DNA of 23,321 nt from a virus: IMG/VR virus record IMGVR_UViG_3300050029_000136, positions 1-23,321 of that record; one strand, given 5' to 3'. The position numbers and the translations under genes were made by a program. The notes under the pieces were generated by a model, which worked only from the letters and a program-made list of their open reading frames with translations, searched no databases and was not told where the DNA came from. Of the stretch, positions 2,807 through 10,804 are shown piece by piece. The number at the start of each line of letters is the position of its first letter. The first letter of the stretch is position 1.

Positions 2807-4660
2807 ATGGCGAAGAAAACAAATTTGCAGAAGAAGATAGAGCAGAAGGCCATCACCATTGTTGACCAAGAGCGTTACAACTGGGAGGATGCCGTTTCTT
2901 TTATTACTCCGAAAGTTGGGTTCCGTATGCGCGAGCTTATTCGTATTTTCAGAAAGAACTTCTGGGGCATTTTTGATGAACCTGTTGATAAGAATACCGG
3001 CAGGGATAAGATTTGGATTGGTCTTGCACAGGCCACTGTTGAGGCATGGGTAAAGAACATTGACATCGATCAGAAGGACATTGACTTCATGGCAAGGAAC
3101 CCTTCTGGTTATGACATCACTGCTATTATTCGTTTGGCGGTTAAGGATTATCTTGACAGGATGTATTTTGGTGAGACTCTCGACAGCGATGAGAGACAAG
3201 TTCTTATAGATGGGACGGTTGTCTGGAAGACATGGGAGGATAAGTCGAGTGGTAAGGTTGTTCTCAAGCGCCGATCAGTGGACTTGTTGAACTTCTATAT
3301 CGATCCGACAGAGGAAAATATACAGTCTGCATATCGCGTAACTGAACGCGCAATCCTATTACCGGAACAAATCAGTGCTATGACCGGGTGGATGAATACA
3401 CGTGGTAAGGACGGTAAGGAACTTCCTGGCTCTGAAGTTCTTAACAGAGTTGATGGTTCGAGACGCTCAAACTTTGGTACCCGCACCACTGGAAACTATC
3501 GTGATGTTTGGGAAATGTGGGGGAAGATTCCGAAGTGGATGGTAACCGGCGACGAGAAGGCCGATGATGCGTATGACGAGATTGATGGACATGTCATTGT
3601 TTCAGGTTTGGAGACTACTGGGCCGGAAGTACACCTGATTGAGCAGAACACAAAGAAGGATAAATTCGGGAACGTCCTCAAGCCTTATGAGGAATGGCGT
3701 GCGGCCAAGATTAATGGGCGCTGGTACGGGCTTGGTCCAGTTGAACGTATTCTAGCGCTTCAGGAGTATTTGAACACCATTATGAACATCCGTATTGGAC
3801 GTTCGTATGTGTCACAACTTGGCCTCTTCAAGATCAAGAAAGGTAAAGGAATCACCTCAACTACTCTCAGCCGTCTCCAAGTGAACGGTGCAGTACAGGT
3901 TCAGGACATGGATGATATCCAGCAATTGAATGTCCAGGAGGCTTCAGAAGCGTCTTACAAGGATGAGGAGGTTATTAAGGCATGGGCAGAACAGATCAGT
4001 TCTGCCTTCCCTATTTCTAATGGCCAAATGACACAGGCTTCTGTGTCAGCAACCGCGACAACGACCGCTAACACAAACGCCAAGAGCTCCTACACCATGT
4101 TCAAAGAAGGTGCCGGGTCGTTCTTAGAGCGTTGGATAGATCGCCATGCTCTTCCTATCATCGCTAAGACTGTTTCAATAGGTGATTTATATAAGATTAG
4201 CTCGGCTGATGAGGGATATAAGAAACTTGCTGAGTCTATCGCCTTGAATTCAGTTATGAACACTCTCCAGAACACTAAGGCCGTACCAACACAGATGGAG
4301 GTTATGCGTGAGATTCAGAAAGAGACTGACAAGATTTTGAGCAAGCCTCAGATATTCTTAGAGACTGTGCAGGACTTGATTGCTGAACATGTTGATACGA
4401 AGGTCAGGATTATGAATGAAGAGATTGATACATCAGTCACGATCAATAATTTGATTCAGATGCTACAGATAGCGCCGGAGTATCGTGAGTCTATGATGAG
4501 AGATATCTATGATTTGATGGGTATGTCATTGCCAAAGATTAATCCAGCGCCACCTCAGGGACAATTACCTCCAGGCGCGGCTCCTCAAGGACAGCAGCCT
4601 GCTCCAAGCCCAATGAACGCTCAACAAGTATTCCAAAATGCCGCAATCAGAAAACAATAA
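2807..4660 (+). CDS. Portal protein
   Basis: A 617-aa protein immediately after the large terminase, of the right size and position for the dodecameric portal at the capsid vertex through which DNA enters and leaves. Residues 305-322 (RWYGLGPVERILALQEYL) match the conserved pattern of podovirus-type portals, a GxG followed by a helix with LQxxLN; a segment DGTVVWKTWED (135-145) also fits. A long helical region follows (about 430-570), and the last 45 residues are rich in proline and glutamine and probably disordered. The 3' end overlaps the next gene by 23 nt. It has its own extended -10 promoter. Assignment rests on motifs and synteny, and I am confident of it. Confidence 0.88.
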   Translation: MAKKTNLQKKIEQKAITIVDQERYNWEDAVSFITPKVGFRMRELIRIFRKNFWGIFDEPVDKNTGRDKIWIGLAQATVEAWVKNIDIDQKDIDFMARNPSGYDITAIIRLAVKDYLDRMYFGETLDSDERQVLIDGTVVWKTWEDKSSGKVVLKRRSVDLLNFYIDPTEENIQSAYRVTERAILLPEQISAMTGWMNTRGKDGKELPGSEVLNRVDGSRRSNFGTRTTGNYRDVWEMWGKIPKWMVTGDEKADDAYDEIDGHVIVSGLETTGPEVHLIEQNTKKDKFGNVLKPYEEWRAAKINGRWYGLGPVERILALQEYLNTIMNIRIGRSYVSQLGLFKIKKGKGITSTTLSRLQVNGAVQVQDMDDIQQLNVQEASEASYKDEEVIKAWAEQISSAFPISNGQMTQASVSATATTTANTNAKSSYTMFKEGAGSFLERWIDRHALPIIAKTVSIGDLYKISSADEGYKKLAESIALNSVMNTLQNTKAVPTQMEVMREIQKETDKILSKPQIFLETVQDLIAEHVDTKVRIMNEEIDTSVTINNLIQMLQIAPEYRESMMRDIYDLMGMSLPKINPAPPQGQLPPGAAPQGQQPAPSPMNAQQVFQNAAIRKQ

Positions 4661-5037: not shown

Positions 5038-5658
5038 ATGGACCCAGACAACACTACCGCCGCAGCAGTACCTGAAGGATCTCAATTGAATCCTGCAGGC
5101 GCAGCAGCGACTGTTGCCCCCGCACCCGTTACAGCGCCAGAAGGTCTGACGCTCGCAGAGCTTAACGAGCACCTCGGCAAGCAGTTTCCTAATCGAGACT
5201 CTGCCTTAAAGGCGCTCAAAGACACTTTCTCCTATGTTGGGAAAAAGAAAGAAGACATTGAGAAAGAAGTCCGAGCCTCCGTTCAACAGAACGATGGCAT
5301 CGAAAGGCTCTCGAAAGAACTGGAAGTGGAACGCAGAGAGCGATTCTATGATAAGAATCCTCAATTTGCGGACCCATCTATTCGCAAAATCATCGAATCT
5401 ACCGGGAAATCCCCCCAGGAGGTCGTGAATAGCGAAGAGTTTAAAACCGTTTTTAACAAAGTATCGGAGTACGATAAGTCACAGAAATTGAGAACTGTGC
5501 TTGAAAGTAACCCTCGTCTTGCTACAAGTAAAGACAATCTCTCCAAGGCCCGTGAACTTCAGGAAGCCGCCTTTAAAACAGGCAACTACCAAGGGAGGCC
5601 GAAGGAAGAAGTAGACCGCCTTGCGGTTGATGCCGTTAAGGAGGCATACGAGATGTAG
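5038..5658 (+). CDS. Scaffolding-like protein
   Basis: A 206-aa protein directly before the capsid gene, where scaffold proteins sit. The first 45 residues are alanine-, proline- and threonine-rich and likely disordered; the middle (about 60-115) is very highly charged and looks helical or coiled-coil (KKKEDIEKEVRASVQQ); the C-terminus is helical and charged. This disordered-plus-helical, low-complexity design is typical of scaffolds that drive capsid assembly and then leave or are degraded. There is no protease motif, so a separate protease or simple exit would be needed. The call rests on position and composition, not on family identity. The AATAGATAGT element sits 14 nt before its ATG. Confidence 0.72.
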   Translation: MDPDNTTAAAVPEGSQLNPAGAAATVAPAPVTAPEGLTLAELNEHLGKQFPNRDSALKALKDTFSYVGKKKEDIEKEVRASVQQNDGIERLSKELEVERRERFYDKNPQFADPSIRKIIESTGKSPQEVVNSEEFKTVFNKVSEYDKSQKLRTVLESNPRLATSKDNLSKARELQEAAFKTGNYQGRPKEEVDRLAVDAVKEAYEM

Positions 5659-5688: not shown

Positions 5689-6612
5689 ATGGCCATTGCA
5701 TCCGCATTGCAGACTTACGGGGATGTGTCAAAAAGAGAGGATGTCGTATTGAACTCCATTGAAATTCTTACCGCTGTTGAGAACTCTGTTCAATCAGCTT
5801 TGGGAAAGACAAAGGCTATCAATACGGTTCACTCCTACTTGATCGACACACTCCTTACCGCAGCTTCGCTCGCGGTTCAACAGGGGACAGACTTTACCTT
5901 GAGCACCCTAACGACTCCTACACGCTTGACAAACATCGTGGAGGAAATCGCTAAGGCTATCTTGGTGACCCGTCCCGAAGAGATTGTTCAGTCTTATTCC
6001 GGTGTTAACGAAAATGATCGTCAGTTGACAAAGGGATTGAAGGACTGGGGCAATGCTCTTGAGTTCGATCTAGTTCGTGGAACGCTTGCTTCAGGTCTTT
6101 CGGGAACCGTCGCAACGTTCGATGGTATTATCAACGGAACTTCGCTTGCTAATAACACGACTGCCCAGACATCTGGAACCGTGTTCTCAGCAACGATTTT
6201 GGACGCTCTACAACAGAACTGCTGGAACACTTCCAATGGTGATGTTGCTACGGATGTCTACGTTGGCGGTATCATGAGGCGTGTTGTGGATAACTTTACT
6301 CAGAAGAGCAACGTCGTTGTTAATACTCCTTCGGTCATGAATATCGTAAGGACTGTTACTAGCTTCGAAACCTCTATGGGTACTCTCCAGATCCACAAGC
6401 ATCGTTACGTTCAACAGAGCGGTGATGCTACGGGCCGTGTTTTGGCCATTCGTCCGGAGAAGATAAAAGTCGCGTATCTTGATATGCCTTTTATCAAGCA
6501 GCTAGCAGAGGCCGGTGCGTATTCAAAGAGGGCGATTTATGGTTCTTGCACGGTGGAATTCCACAACCAGAACTCTAATCATTTTTCTTCAGGATATTTG
6601 CTGACCGCATAA
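5689..6612 (+). CDS. Major capsid protein, SU10/DUF5309-like
   Basis: A 307-aa protein following the scaffold. The pattern matches the DUF5309/SU10-type capsid family: an N-terminal segment with VHSYLIDTL, a region rich in TRLTNIVEEIAKAILVT, an LTKGLKDWGNALEFDL stretch, then near the C-terminus ALDMPF-like YLDMPFIKQLAEAG and an ending EFHNQNSNHFSSGYLLTA. This family has the HK97 fold and builds the icosahedral or prolate shell; its namesake SU10 is a podophage. Length is slightly short but normal. The chaperonin gene comes next, suggesting it may help fold this protein. The start is supported by the matched AATAGATAGT spacing with the scaffold gene. Confidence 0.85.
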   Translation: MAIASALQTYGDVSKREDVVLNSIEILTAVENSVQSALGKTKAINTVHSYLIDTLLTAASLAVQQGTDFTLSTLTTPTRLTNIVEEIAKAILVTRPEEIVQSYSGVNENDRQLTKGLKDWGNALEFDLVRGTLASGLSGTVATFDGIINGTSLANNTTAQTSGTVFSATILDALQQNCWNTSNGDVATDVYVGGIMRRVVDNFTQKSNVVVNTPSVMNIVRTVTSFETSMGTLQIHKHRYVQQSGDATGRVLAIRPEKIKVAYLDMPFIKQLAEAGAYSKRAIYGSCTVEFHNQNSNHFSSGYLLTA

Positions 6613-6622
6613 AGTGTGTTAG

Positions 6623-6645
6623 AATTAATCTTATCGGGATTAATT
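6623..6645 (+). terminator. AT-rich hairpin after the capsid gene
   Basis: AATTAATC (6623-6630) and GATTAATT (6638-6645) form a perfect 8-bp stem around TTATCGG, 10 nt after the capsid stop. There is no proper T-run after it, and the stem is AT-rich, so termination would be weak. It may instead stabilise the abundant capsid mRNA 3' end while letting some transcription continue into the chaperonin gene. Confidence 0.4.
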
Positions 6646-6649
6646 TGTT

Positions 6650-6693
6650 GGTGGGGTTTGGTACTCAAGATCCCTTTCCCCACCGATCTTGAG
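6650..6693 (+). promoter_or_regulatory. Interleaved inverted repeats in the chaperonin leader, possible RNA switch
   Basis: Two perfect inverted repeats are interlocked: GGTGGGG (6650-6656) with CCCCACC (6678-6684), and CTCAAGATC (6664-6672) with GATCTTGAG (6685-6693). They alternate in a-b-a'-b' order. No base separates a' from b', so a full pseudoknot looks sterically strained and the two hairpins are more likely alternatives. The b' arm covers the only purine-rich GAGAG before the chaperonin ATG at 6704, so one fold would hide the start region and the other expose it. The regulatory role is inferred from geometry. Confidence 0.5.
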
Positions 6694-6703
6694 AGTAAAT
6701 TAA

Positions 6704-8197
6704 ATGAAAATAATCAAACAAGGACAAGAAGCGCGGGAGGCGCTGAAGAGAGGAATCGACCTAGTGGCCGATTGTGTCAAAGTTACCTTGGGACCAAGTG
6801 GAAGAAACGCCGTCCTCGGTAAAATGGATATTCCACCAGATATTACAAACGATGGTGTAACCATCGCCAGAAATATTGAAGCGGATGATGAGATAGAGAA
6901 TCAGGGTGTCTGGATGGTGAAAGAGGCTTCCTCGATCACGGATAGAGAGGGTGGAGACGGCACAACCACTACGACGGTTCTTCTTCAGGCCATTGTTGCC
7001 GAACTGTTCGAGGTTTTAAAGGATGATGGCTCACTTGTTAAGAATAAGGTGGACAGTATTAAACTAAAAAAGGAGGTCGATCATTGGTGCGGTCAAGTTG
7101 TGGAAAAGCTCAAGGAACATGCTCGACCTATAACTAAAAAGGACATTTACAATGTCGCAATGGTATCAGGCGAGTATGAGTGGCTTGCCAAGATGGTGAC
7201 GGACATTTATGAGAAGATTGGCCAGGATGGGTATGTGACTATCGAGGAGGGAGTAAAGACTGAATATGAGATATATAAAGGCATTGAACTTAATGCCGGA
7301 TGGCACAGTGATTACTATATCAACAATGATAAGAGGGAATGTGTTATTGAGAAGCCTCGTATCTTAGTGACCAATAATAAGATTGACGGTAATGCTCTCC
7401 AGCCAATTGTTAATCTTATTGGAGAACTTATAGCCGCAGAAGTCAAAGAGCTTATTATTATCGCTCCGGAGTTTTCAAGGGACGCGTTAAGCCGTTTGAC
7501 TACGACTAAGACTAAAGGCTTATTTACTGCTGTGGCTTTGAAATTACCTACTTTTGATAAGGATGATTTGCTTGTTGATGTCTGTACTCTTACACAGGCT
7601 AAGTTTTTGGATAAGAATACATATGCTAGTGGGGATGCTTTTTTCAATGATTTTAAAGTAGTCAATCTTGGTACTGCGACTCGCGCCGTTATAGGAGAGG
7701 TTAAGACTTTTATTATGGGGGGTGAGGGAAATACAAAGGCTAGGGTGAAGGAGATAAAGACCGTTTTGGCCAAGACTGAATCCGCATTTGATCGGGATGC
7801 GCTAGAGAAACGTATAGCCTTCTTAGGGGGCGGCATGGCAATAATCAAGATTGGTGGTGAGTCGGAGTTTGAAAGACATTATTTCAAGTTGAAATGTGAG
7901 GATTCGGTAAACGCTGTGCCGGCTGCGTTGAAAGATGGTGTGGTAAAAGGTGGTGGTTTAGCTCTAAAAGAGATTGCTGATGATCTACCAAAAAACCTGT
8001 TGACCAAGGCATTAAGCGCCCCGTATGAGCAAATTCAGAAGAATAGTGGGGGCATTGTAATTAAGGATTCAGTGGTCGATCCTGTGAAGATTACTATAGC
8101 GGCACTGAAGTCGGCCTGTTCTTTGGCCGGCATGATTATCACTACCGAGGTTGTCACGGCGTTTAAACGAGAAAAACATGCTGAACTTAAGGACTAA
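6704..8197 (+). CDS. groEL-like: Phage-encoded group I chaperonin (GroEL-like)
   Basis: An ATP-driven protein-folding machine subunit, 497 aa against about 548 in Escherichia coli. Hallmarks are intact: VKVTLGPSGRN (25-35), TNDGVTIA (48-55), the nucleotide motif GDGTTTTTV (84-92) with D85 at the place of D87, ED at 399-400 at the place of catalytic D398, GVVKGGGLAL (412-421), VDPVK (458-462) and GMIITTE (476-482). All three domains are present. The missing length comes mainly from a shortened loop in the C-terminal equatorial domain (about 447-458) and from the absent C-terminal GGM tail. In the apical domain the E. coli V263-V264 pair corresponds to T266-T267. No GroES-like gene is visible here. 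Position after the capsid gene suggests capsid folding as its job. Confidence 0.95.
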   Translation: MKIIKQGQEAREALKRGIDLVADCVKVTLGPSGRNAVLGKMDIPPDITNDGVTIARNIEADDEIENQGVWMVKEASSITDREGGDGTTTTTVLLQAIVAELFEVLKDDGSLVKNKVDSIKLKKEVDHWCGQVVEKLKEHARPITKKDIYNVAMVSGEYEWLAKMVTDIYEKIGQDGYVTIEEGVKTEYEIYKGIELNAGWHSDYYINNDKRECVIEKPRILVTNNKIDGNALQPIVNLIGELIAAEVKELIIIAPEFSRDALSRLTTTKTKGLFTAVALKLPTFDKDDLLVDVCTLTQAKFLDKNTYASGDAFFNDFKVVNLGTATRAVIGEVKTFIMGGEGNTKARVKEIKTVLAKTESAFDRDALEKRIAFLGGGMAIIKIGGESEFERHYFKLKCEDSVNAVPAALKDGVVKGGGLALKEIADDLPKNLLTKALSAPYEQIQKNSGGIVIKDSVVDPVKITIAALKSACSLAGMIITTEVVTAFKREKHAELKD

Positions 8198-8210
8198 AAC
8201 AAAAGTCAGG

Positions 8211-8480
8211 ATGGCCGTTAAGGACTATCAGAACATGTTCCCAGAGGAATATCAGAAACTTATGCTTATTATTGAACAACAGCGCCAAAACCTACAATCT
8301 GAATATGCCGAGATACCAGCTACCAAGGGTATCAAACGTGCGTTATTCAGTGTCAGTGAGAAATTATCGGCGATGATAGGGCTCAAATTAACCCAAGAGG
8401 AACGTATTGAGTTTAAGGATTTACAAGCACAGAGGTGGTTCTGTAAAGAATTTCCTCAATTTTCATTGACCAAGATATGA
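8211..8480 (+). CDS. Hypothetical helical protein, 89 aa
   Basis: An unrecognised, charged, probably helical protein (KLMLIIEQQRQNLQSEY) without membrane segments. It follows the chaperonin by 13 nt when started at 8211; an earlier ATG at 8178 would overlap the chaperonin end by 20 nt. I prefer 8211 because it follows the chaperonin stop and has AGG just upstream. The stop overlaps the start of the glycosyltransferase (ATGA), so it is co-translated with that gene. I looked for a GroES-type beta-rich co-chaperonin and this is not one: it lacks the glycine-rich mobile loop and beta pattern. Confidence 0.6.
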   Translation: MAVKDYQNMFPEEYQKLMLIIEQQRQNLQSEYAEIPATKGIKRALFSVSEKLSAMIGLKLTQEERIEFKDLQAQRWFCKEFPQFSLTKI

Positions 8481-10804
8481 AACTCGCTGCCGCCATTATT
8501 TGTAAAGGATCAGACGATGAAGCTGTCGTTCTGCGCCGGTGTCTCAAGTCCATATCACCATATGTTGACGGTATCTTTTTAACGGTTACTCACAAAGCAG
8601 GAGAAGAACCGAATGCCGCAGTGTGCAAGGTAGGGGCTGAGTTTAAGGCTAATGTGTCTTATTTTGAATGGATCAATGACTTTGCGGCAGCTAGGAATTT
8701 CAATTTCTCTAAGGTTACAAAGGATTATGATTACATTTTGTGGTGCGACGCCGACGACGTTTGGCAAAACCTAGATAAGTTTAGGGACATTCTTGAGAAA
8801 AGTGCGGCTGTGGATGCCTTCTTATTCAACTATCTTTATGAGTTCGATAGCTCGAATAATCCAACAGTTGTTCACAAGAAAACCCAAGTTGTCCGTAATG
8901 ATGGATGTGTCAACTGGGTTGGCAAACTTCATGAGGATTTCCATGAGAACCGCAAGCTAAATGCCTGGTTCGTTGGAGATATTCAAAGGATTCATTTGAC
9001 CACGAAGGAGCGTGGTGCAGTAGCAGCAAAAAGAAATGTTGAGATTTCTAAGGAGGAATTGAAGCTAAAAAAGGAGGATCCTAGGGCTTATTTCAATCTT
9101 GCCAATTCCTATCTCGGTGCCGGTAATAATAAGCTTGCCATCAAGAATTTCAAAACATTCATGGAAATGTCTCAGTCAGATGATGAGAAGTATTTGGTCT
9201 ATATGAGGCTTTCTGCCTGCGAGAATGCTGAAGGAAACTTTGATAGAGCCGTTGAGTGTCTACAGATTGCCATTGGTATGTTCCCGGAAGCACCAGATGC
9301 CTATAACGCTTTGGGCTATCTCTATTTTAGTAAGAACTTCTTTGACAAGGCGGAGAAGTATTTACTTATCGGTTTGCAGATGAAGCCTCAGTATCATAGA
9401 ACCATTGTCTATAATCCTCGTGATTATGATTACAATCCGATGATGGCCTTGGCTAAGGTGTATTTCAATAAGGCTAGACCTGATTATGCTCTGCCAATGC
9501 TCAAAGGCTGTCTAGCCATTTATCCAGATGATAAGAGCCTTCAGGAGAAAATAACCATCATGGAGAAGGAGTTGGAGCGTCTGCAAAGCGTTCTTGATGC
9601 GGTTAAGCACATGGAAACTTTGAATGGGGATAAGGATAAGATTTTGTATAATATCAAGAAGCTCCCTATCGATCTACAATCACATCCTGCTATCTGCCGT
9701 ATTAGGAATCAATACTTTGTTAAAACAACGTCAACTGGGAAGGATATTGCTTATTATTGTGGGGAGACTAGTTTTGATTGGAATCCGGACCTGTTCAAGA
9801 CTAAAGGTTTTGGCGGTTCCGAAGAGGCAGTTATCAATCTATCGAAGGAGTGGGTGAAGCTAGGTTACAATGTTACCGTATTCAATTCCTGTGGTTTTGA
9901 GGATATGGTACGCGACGGAGTGACATATAAGCCGTTCTGGTCGTACAATCCGAAGGATAAATATGACCATCTCATTCTCTGGCGTTCTCCGCGTTTAGCG
10001 GACCGAGAGCTTAATGCGACGAATATCTATGTGGATATGCACGATGTCATATCTGCTGGGGAGTTTAATGAAGCAAGGTTAAAGAAGATTACGAAGGTGT
10101 TTGTAAAGACTCAGGCACATCGAATCTTGTTCCCTAATGTGACAGGCGAACAGATTGCCATTATTCCTAATGGTATTGATGTATCGATGTTTGAGGGTAC
10201 AGTAAAGCGTGATCCGTATCTATTACTGAACACTTCAAGTCCAGACCGCTCAATGGACGTGCTTCCAAAGTTATTTCTGGAGGTGAAGAAAAGGGTGCCG
10301 CAGGCTAAATTGGCGTGGTGTTATGGTTGGACAACCTTCGACTTGTCGTTTAGGAACGATAAACGAATGATAGAATGGCGCGATAAGATTCAGAAGGAGT
10401 GTGATGAGGCGGGGATTATGTCATTGGGTAAGATTCCTCAAGCAGAGTGTGCTGAATGGTATCAACGGGCGACAATATTGGCCTATCCAACAGAGTTTTA
10501 CGAAATAGATTGTTTGAGCGTTAAGAAAGCCCAGTTAGCCGGTTGCTATCCTGTAGCCACTGATTTCGCGGCGTTGAATGAAAGTATCTCATGGGGAGCA
10601 AAAATTCATTCAACCAAGACTAAAGATAATTGGAGTAAGCCATATCAGATTTCTTTTGGTCTTGAAGGTAAGAAAGAACAAAAGGCATGGGTAGACGCTG
10701 TAGTTGAGGCATTAAAAAATCCACCGAAAGAAGGGGGCATTGATATAGGCGAAACATTTAAATGGTCAAGAGTCGCTAACGCCTGGGCGGAAATATTCAA
10801 ATGA
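8477..10804 (+). CDS. GT2-TPR-GT4 fusion glycosyltransferase
   Basis: A 775-aa protein with two different glycosyltransferase modules. Residues 1-175 look like a GT-A/GT2 domain: KLAAAIICKGSDDE at the start, NDFAAARNF (67-75), the metal-binding D-x-D type sequence WCDADD (89-94) and WVGKLHEDF (147-155). Residues 200-350 hold tetratricopeptide repeats (AYFNLANSYLGAG, DAYNALGYLYF). Residues 420-775 look like a GT-B/GT4 domain with GFGGSEEAV (444-452), IIPNGIDVSMF (562-572) and EFYEIDCLSVKKAQLAG (673-689), where the second glutamate of the usual E-x7-E is not conserved. Such enzymes transfer sugars from nucleotide-sugar donors onto protein or glycan acceptors. Both ends overlap neighbours by ATGA. 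Confidence 0.85.
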   Translation: MKLAAAIICKGSDDEAVVLRRCLKSISPYVDGIFLTVTHKAGEEPNAAVCKVGAEFKANVSYFEWINDFAAARNFNFSKVTKDYDYILWCDADDVWQNLDKFRDILEKSAAVDAFLFNYLYEFDSSNNPTVVHKKTQVVRNDGCVNWVGKLHEDFHENRKLNAWFVGDIQRIHLTTKERGAVAAKRNVEISKEELKLKKEDPRAYFNLANSYLGAGNNKLAIKNFKTFMEMSQSDDEKYLVYMRLSACENAEGNFDRAVECLQIAIGMFPEAPDAYNALGYLYFSKNFFDKAEKYLLIGLQMKPQYHRTIVYNPRDYDYNPMMALAKVYFNKARPDYALPMLKGCLAIYPDDKSLQEKITIMEKELERLQSVLDAVKHMETLNGDKDKILYNIKKLPIDLQSHPAICRIRNQYFVKTTSTGKDIAYYCGETSFDWNPDLFKTKGFGGSEEAVINLSKEWVKLGYNVTVFNSCGFEDMVRDGVTYKPFWSYNPKDKYDHLILWRSPRLADRELNATNIYVDMHDVISAGEFNEARLKKITKVFVKTQAHRILFPNVTGEQIAIIPNGIDVSMFEGTVKRDPYLLLNTSSPDRSMDVLPKLFLEVKKRVPQAKLAWCYGWTTFDLSFRNDKRMIEWRDKIQKECDEAGIMSLGKIPQAECAEWYQRATILAYPTEFYEIDCLSVKKAQLAGCYPVATDFAALNESISWGAKIHSTKTKDNWSKPYQISFGLEGKKEQKAWVDAVVEALKNPPKEGGIDIGETFKWSRVANAWAEIFK

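Follow-up and report, generated by a model that had tools for sequence, protein, structure and literature searches.

A 23,321-nucleotide virus record (23.3 kb, hereafter the window, the whole stretch of DNA that was analysed) encodes a GroEL-type chaperonin directly after its major capsid gene. The protein belongs to a widespread natural clade in which the adenine loop of GroEL and its known contacts between rings are gone, yet the catalytic aspartates are retained. By a modest balance of probability, we favour a reading in which it is an ATP-driven, single-ring chaperonin that folds or holds virion proteins, most likely the capsid protein, without a phage GroES. The need of GroEL for two rings, and the way in which a chaperonin folds proteins when GroES is lacking, are long-standing questions, for which the engineered mutant SR1 and a few giant-phage proteins have been studied. 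Phages sharing the window's capsid module carry the chaperonin, a mini-GroES instead, or neither, which provides a natural comparison; since they differ in this content, the dependence of the capsid on the chaperonin is directly testable.

The Chaperonin Gene and Its Neighbours

The genes are listed left to right on the + strand, with features of the chaperonin gene and its junction, as follows.

670-1242, + strand: possible small terminase subunit, by position
1332-2753, + strand: terminase large subunit (PF03237, E 3e-7; phrog_2, E 1e-32)
2807-4660, + strand: portal protein, assigned from its position and from synteny kept in relatives, without a family match
Between the portal gene and the scaffold-like ORF, + strand: 105-aa ORF, from the ORF list
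5038-5658, + strand: scaffold-like ORF, named for its place after the portal and before the capsid gene, without a family match
5689-6612, + strand: major capsid protein, SU10 type, 33 kDa (PF17236, E 4e-39; phrog_1328)
6640-6703, + strand: predicted three-stem pseudoknot RNA (H-type plus outer stem), from folding, scan and shuffles; stems S0 6640-6649/6694-6703, S1 6650-6656/6678-6684 and S2 6664-6672/6685-6693
6704-8197, + strand: chaperonin (Cpn60/GroEL-type), 497 aa, from Pfam, PHROGs, NCBIfam, PDB sequence and predicted structure
6851-6853, + strand: codon of D50, equivalent to GroEL D52 (nucleotide/Mg site), residue map, invariant column
6956-6958, + strand: codon of D85, equivalent to GroEL D87, residue map, invariant columns
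7901-7903, + strand: codon of D400, equivalent to GroEL D398 (hydrolysis), residue map, invariant columns
8027-8029, + strand: codon of E442, equivalent to GroEL R452, residue map; Glu as in SR1
8054-8080, + strand: shortened stretch from helix PYEQIQKNSGG to D459 (GroEL D495), from alignment
8211-8480, + strand: small ORF c22, 89 aa from the ATG at 8211, conserved after the capsid gene or the chaperonin gene in relatives
8477-10804, + strand: glycosyltransferase family 2 with TPR repeats (GT-TPR), at the same place in relatives

The ATG of the chaperonin gene lies 91 bases past the end of the SU10-type capsid ORF, and the position directly after the capsid gene, in the head module, is as the earlier note described it. 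No Cpn10 turned up in the window ORFs that were scanned against Pfam. A sigma-70 promoter scan of 6400-8400 gave no candidate above chance, and c22 has no Pfam or PHROG family match. Behind the capsid region, the segment 8477-12986 encodes the GT-TPR protein, a GT1, a methyltransferase and another glycosyltransferase-like ORF, and the distal genes include a transglycosylase. The GT-TPR gene is present in nearly all relatives, a conservation that may point to glycosylated virions.

Identity and Predicted Fold

The ORF at 6704-8197 encodes a member of the Cpn60/TCP-1 superfamily (PF00118). It opens with an ATG, and GDGTTTTTV, GVVKGGGLAL and MIITTE, the motifs on which the first identification as a GroEL-type protein was based, are all in frame. 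The protein matches PF00118 (Cpn60_TCP1) with E 7e-31 and 107.8 bits (cut-off 34.3) and PHROG 5725 'chaperonin groEL' with E 2e-96, and its top PDB sequence match is the GroEL of E. faecium (E 1e-78). Against the GroEL equivalog model TIGR02348 it scores 329.7 bits, below the cut-off of 582.1, and its identity to bacterial GroELs is about 35-40%. Structure prediction, which had been proposed as a check, agrees with the assignment. The AlphaFold2 model (28-row alignment) has a pLDDT of 88 and a pTM of 0.77; in Foldseek it aligns with GroES-bound T. thermophilus Cpn60 at TM 0.86, and a VIA-align Z of about 40 covers the full-length three-domain fold. The best superpositions of the model are with GroEL subunits in GroES-bound states.

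The gene had also been called intact. This is so within its own family, but in alignment with E. coli GroEL (548 aa) two equatorial segments, residues ~425-440 and ~460-488, and the GGM tail are missing. As for the supposed rarity of phage chaperonins, 238 phage records match, some of them apparently bacterial contigs filed as phage, and phage chaperonins are no longer very rare. Two top matches filed as Enterococcus and Listeria 'phage' (L006 and L007) were set aside; they have GGM-type tails, group with bacterial GroEL and look like bacterial contigs.

Nucleotide Site, Ring Contacts and Apical Face

In GroEL, E434 is a ring-contact residue, and residues 479-481 form the adenine side of the nucleotide pocket. 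At 8054-8080 of the window, about 28 GroEL residues are missing, including E461, S463, V464 and N479-A481. Across the clade, D52, D87 and D495 are retained in all 39 members and D398 in 38 (the exception is a single D398N), and a gap spans positions 434, 461, 463, 464 and 479-481 in 39 of 39, in a sample that comes from degenerate-peptide scans favouring the motifs used and is thus not an unbiased count. The search patterns did not include the two deletions. Position 452 is E in 21 members, N in 11, another residue in 7 and never R (n = 39), the share of E being raised by the APYEQIQ pattern, which enriched the clade; in bacterial GroELs it is R or K in 14 of 16 rows (R in E. coli). The GroEL-strict ring-ring contacts E434, R452, E461, S463 and V464 are deleted or replaced, and the adenine loop 479-481 is deleted, in every one of the 39.

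The retained aspartates make it highly likely that the chaperonin is active and ATP-dependent, hydrolysing ATP. The loss of the known ring-ring contacts suggests that it is probably a single ring, a reading to be taken with the caution that the ring contacts could be rebuilt in another way. A phage GroES is quite likely not needed, or else the host GroES would be used. On the apical face, the residues equivalent to GroEL Y199/Y203/F204/L234/L237/L259/V263/V264 are W/Y/Y/V/I/L/T/T; that is, the GroES/substrate positions are mostly hydrophobic from 199 to 259 and polar at 263/264, and the face is partly conserved. The glycine hinges are retained, and the intra-ring residue R197 is replaced by A.

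Comparison with Known Chaperonins

The chaperonin resembles bacterial GroEL in its three-domain fold throughout, in D52, D87, D398 and D495, in its glycine hinges and in its place on the group I side of the tree. It differs in being about 50 aa shorter, with ~35% identity, no GGM tail and no adjoining groES, and in the deletion of the adenine loop and of the two sites of contact between rings, with R452 replaced. SR1, an engineered GroEL carrying R452E/E461A/S463A/V464A, is altered at the main contacts between the rings and assembles as a single ring (PMC5653362). Like SR1, the chaperonin has E at 452, and E461, S463 and V464, which are A in SR1, are absent. Unlike SR1, it is natural, has deletions instead of substitutions, and has lost E434 and the adenine loop as well.

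The phage chaperonins EL gp146, OBP gp246 and AR9 gp228 are likewise phage-encoded GroEL homologues without a neighbouring GroES, but they come from phages of 200+ kb and are very divergent, EL being about 25% identical to the window chaperonin. Those of OBP and AR9 form single rings and do not need a co-chaperonin (PMC9598537). The EL protein is 22% identical to GroEL and forms double rings without ATP, which separate with ATP (PMC7185714). A single ring in the window chaperonin would be in line with OBP and AR9, though EL demonstrates that pairing of rings still occurs among phage chaperonins. Marine and soil viral chaperonins are, like the window protein, GroEL-like proteins of environmental phages that are phylogenetically apart from bacterial GroEL, and those of soil viruses were detected as peptides; the passages on them in PMC8390657 do not describe the deletion signature of the window clade. 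Part of the clade may already be in the trees of Marine et al. 2017. The chaperonins of the crAss-like phages cr108_1 and phi14:2 are also short (490-494 aa) and also lack GroEL residues 479-481, but they keep K51 and fall outside the supported clade of the chaperonin; their genes precede terminase and portal by a few genes.

Phylogeny and Selection

The chaperonin belongs to a phage-only clade with bootstrap 100 and SH-aLRT 100 in a careful tree of 38 rows (SH-aLRT 96 in a quick tree of 86 rows), both built with the deletion-bearing columns removed. The GroELs of Patescibacteria, Bacillota, Planctomycetota and enterobacteria all fall outside it. In the 86-row tree, a 100* branch parts the chaperonin and group I from groups II/III, and the EL and AR9-like rows are on long branches, a common clade with the window chaperonin being neither favoured nor contradicted (OBP was left out). 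The phages that carry the clade are about 30-45 kb, and homologues are present in many environmental phages. Tight clustering within the GroEL of one host, named beforehand as the outcome that would speak against a phage chaperonin under selection, was not found; as a member of the supported clade, the gene is not a recent capture from a host. Two specific sources were rejected. Against a recent acquisition from Patescibacteria (CPR) stand the trees and an identity of 34-40% to CPR GroELs. A Planctomycetes origin, suggested by a genome hit (L053), fails because that locus is an ordinary bacterial groEL beside chromosomal genes.

Between the window and L154, the chaperonin gene has pN 0.23 and pS 0.83, and between L144 and L155, pN 0.19 and pS 0.76, values that indicate strong purifying selection. 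The capsid protein has pN 0.11 and 0.07 in the same two pairs, and the chaperonin changes at about two to three times its rate.

Gene Position Among Relatives

A capsid-profile scan yielded 33 phage contigs that share the module of the window, with capsid homologues 49-85% identical. The chaperonin gene lies between the capsid gene and c22 in eight phages (window, L144, L150, L154, L155, L156, L162 and L176; the L154 and L155 contigs end inside it). In two phages with the same capsid module, L015/L011 and L145, it is upstream of the terminase genes. It is missing from 25 of the 34 records that share this module (window excluded), seven of them 33-41 kb long, and all records are fragments by the classification of the tool, such that absence does not prove loss. 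Phages of the wider clade have other capsid types; where their flanks reach that far, the gene mostly lies immediately before the terminase genes, and in L004, L005, L032, L038 and L039 it is between terminase and portal. The strand is that of the terminase-portal-scaffold-capsid genes in the window and most relatives. Since the positions differ among relatives, location in the virion module is general, and the post-capsid slot is one of at least three. The earlier note had read that slot as a special clue, which does not fit the variable position or absence of the gene in same-capsid phages. In the capsid tree, the chaperonin marks a nine-row clade (98/95), plus L176, and is absent from the eight-row sister clade; confined in this way, it follows the capsid lineage.

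Small partner genes occur at some of these loci. L180, which has the same capsid family, carries just upstream of terminase, at 568-804, a gene for a 78-aa GroES-like protein (Cpn10, 31 bits); there is no Cpn60 match in that record, and the Cpn10 sits in the chaperonin slot of others. In a set of 24 relatives' records, Cpn10 was found in one. In the wider clade, a family of 82-103 aa, c8, is encoded immediately, or almost immediately, before the chaperonin in ten records (L012, L017, L018, L024, L027, L029, L031, L036, L040 and L043). The c8 member examined matched neither Pfam nor PHROGs, and c8 is a possible partner protein of the chaperonin. The idea that c22 and c8 are disguised GroES proteins was dropped, as neither has a Cpn10 match.

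In several relatives, ORFs interrupt or trail the capsid gene, which makes the capsid/c22 region a hot spot for insertions. In L144, a group I intron at 9290-9998 (Rfam RF00028, 75 bits) splits the capsid gene near codon 18, and an accompanying HNH ORF overlaps the start of the RF00028 match. Other such ORFs are found in L173 (6711-7241), an HNH endonuclease by Pfam; in L172 (11159-11788), matching the HNH ORF of the window; and in L165 (10945-11388), HNH-like by eye and without a Pfam match. The ORFs in the large-terminase position of L144 (657 aa), L037/L044 (791 aa) and L041 (691 aa) are 200 to 380 aa over those of relatives and are possible inteins or fusions.

A Predicted Pseudoknot at the Capsid Junction

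The outer stem S0 of the predicted pseudoknot ends at the base that directly precedes the chaperonin ATG, and the window pseudoknot beat 300 of 300 dinucleotide shuffles. Under strict three-stem criteria, a scan of 497 kb from these phages gave 18 + strand hits, nearly all at the capsid junction, against 8 in the reversed-sequence control; the scan parameters were fixed after the first four cases had been seen, and exact significance is not claimed. The relatives have the same topology with differing stem sequences, and the next gene is the chaperonin gene or c22. Pseudoknots are predicted in L015 (6456-6498), L144 (10904-10944), L150 (5789-5839), L156 (5339-5382), L162 (7966-8010) and L176 (6455-6501), and also at the junctions of L175, L177, L165, L167, L163, L173 and L180. 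In the remaining relatives with a structure at this junction, it is a simple hairpin resembling a terminator. The junction pseudoknot has no match in Rfam. Our guess is that it affects how the downstream gene is translated or how stable the capsid mRNA is.

Proposed Role and Alternatives

The capsid proteins of lambda and T4 require GroEL plus GroES or gp31 (PMC9598537). We propose that the chaperonin would be made together with the late virion genes; that seven subunits would form a single ring without a phage GroES; and that newly made virion proteins, most likely the abundant 33-kDa capsid protein, would be captured and then folded or held. That the capsid protein is a main client has, in our estimate, slightly less than an even chance. 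Capsid folding is a reasonable role to infer, and we put it no higher than plausible because same-capsid relatives vary in slot and mostly lack the chaperonin. The 25 of 34 records without it imply that this capsid type can do without a chaperonin, unless the hosts' GroEL suffices. Facultative presence with the same capsid suggests that the need is set by the phage-host pair and not by the capsid fold alone. Nor is a single client implied for the wider clade, as its capsid families are not the same: the window has an SU10-type capsid, and others match Phage_capsid_4 weakly.

The strongest alternative, which we consider unlikely though far from negligible, is a general folding helper for non-capsid phage proteins (tail, terminase, lysis, glycosyltransferase), with the late operon serving for timing only. 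The shifting place of the gene in the module and the many phages of this capsid type without it would fit such a helper, as would an endolysin among the characterised clients of OBP/AR9/EL type chaperonins (PMC9598537). The GT-TPR proteins (~780 aa) adjoin the chaperonin in the window and its nearest relatives, but their gene is equally present in phages without a chaperonin, and the restriction of the chaperonin to one capsid clade (9 rows, against none in the 8-row sister) also counts against this alternative. A bolder extension of the single-ring reading we advance only as a doubtful, speculative idea: the clade would be a phage-only class, naturally single-ring and GroES-independent, with a rebuilt nucleotide pocket, serving the virion proteins of small phages, and the pseudoknot would set the ratio of chaperonin to capsid synthesis.

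It is distinctly improbable that the chaperonin instead co-assembles with or modifies the host GroEL/GroES, in mixed rings or by using host GroES. In its favour, the phage has no GroES among its scanned ORFs, the predicted fold is in a GroES-bound-like extended state, and T4 gp31 rewires host GroEL (PMC9598537). Against it stand an identity of only ~35-40% to bacterial GroEL, the change of the GroES/substrate positions 234, 237, 263 and 264 to V, I, T and T, and the change of the intra-ring R197 to A. Finally, a captured bacterial groEL carried as cargo without selected function, which would suit the patchy presence among close relatives and a capsid junction that also takes homing endonuclease genes, is strongly disfavoured by the fully supported phage-only clade (100/100), the catalytic residues kept despite deep divergence, a pN far below pS and the homologues in many environmental phages.

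The Host

The closest match in the genome collection (L051, 57% identity) is on a partial, 4.4-kb contig in a Taylorbacteria MAG. Its gene order, chaperonin-c22-GT-TPR, is that of the window, which marks it as a phage contig binned into the MAG, and its chaperonin is the only Cpn60 match there. This binning is a weak hint, and the only one, to Taylorbacteria as host. An ordinary GroEL of ~550 aa is found in 87 of 118 genomes of the order of that MAG, which gives no support to the suggestion in the earlier note of a host with limited folding capacity. A search of genomes with the capsid gave one match in 380 CPR genomes and two in 398 of another phylum, all remote. In one CPR genome (G200), contig 1, of ~623 kb, has a chaperonin fragment within an open frame of 24,298 residues, which is probably masked sequence.
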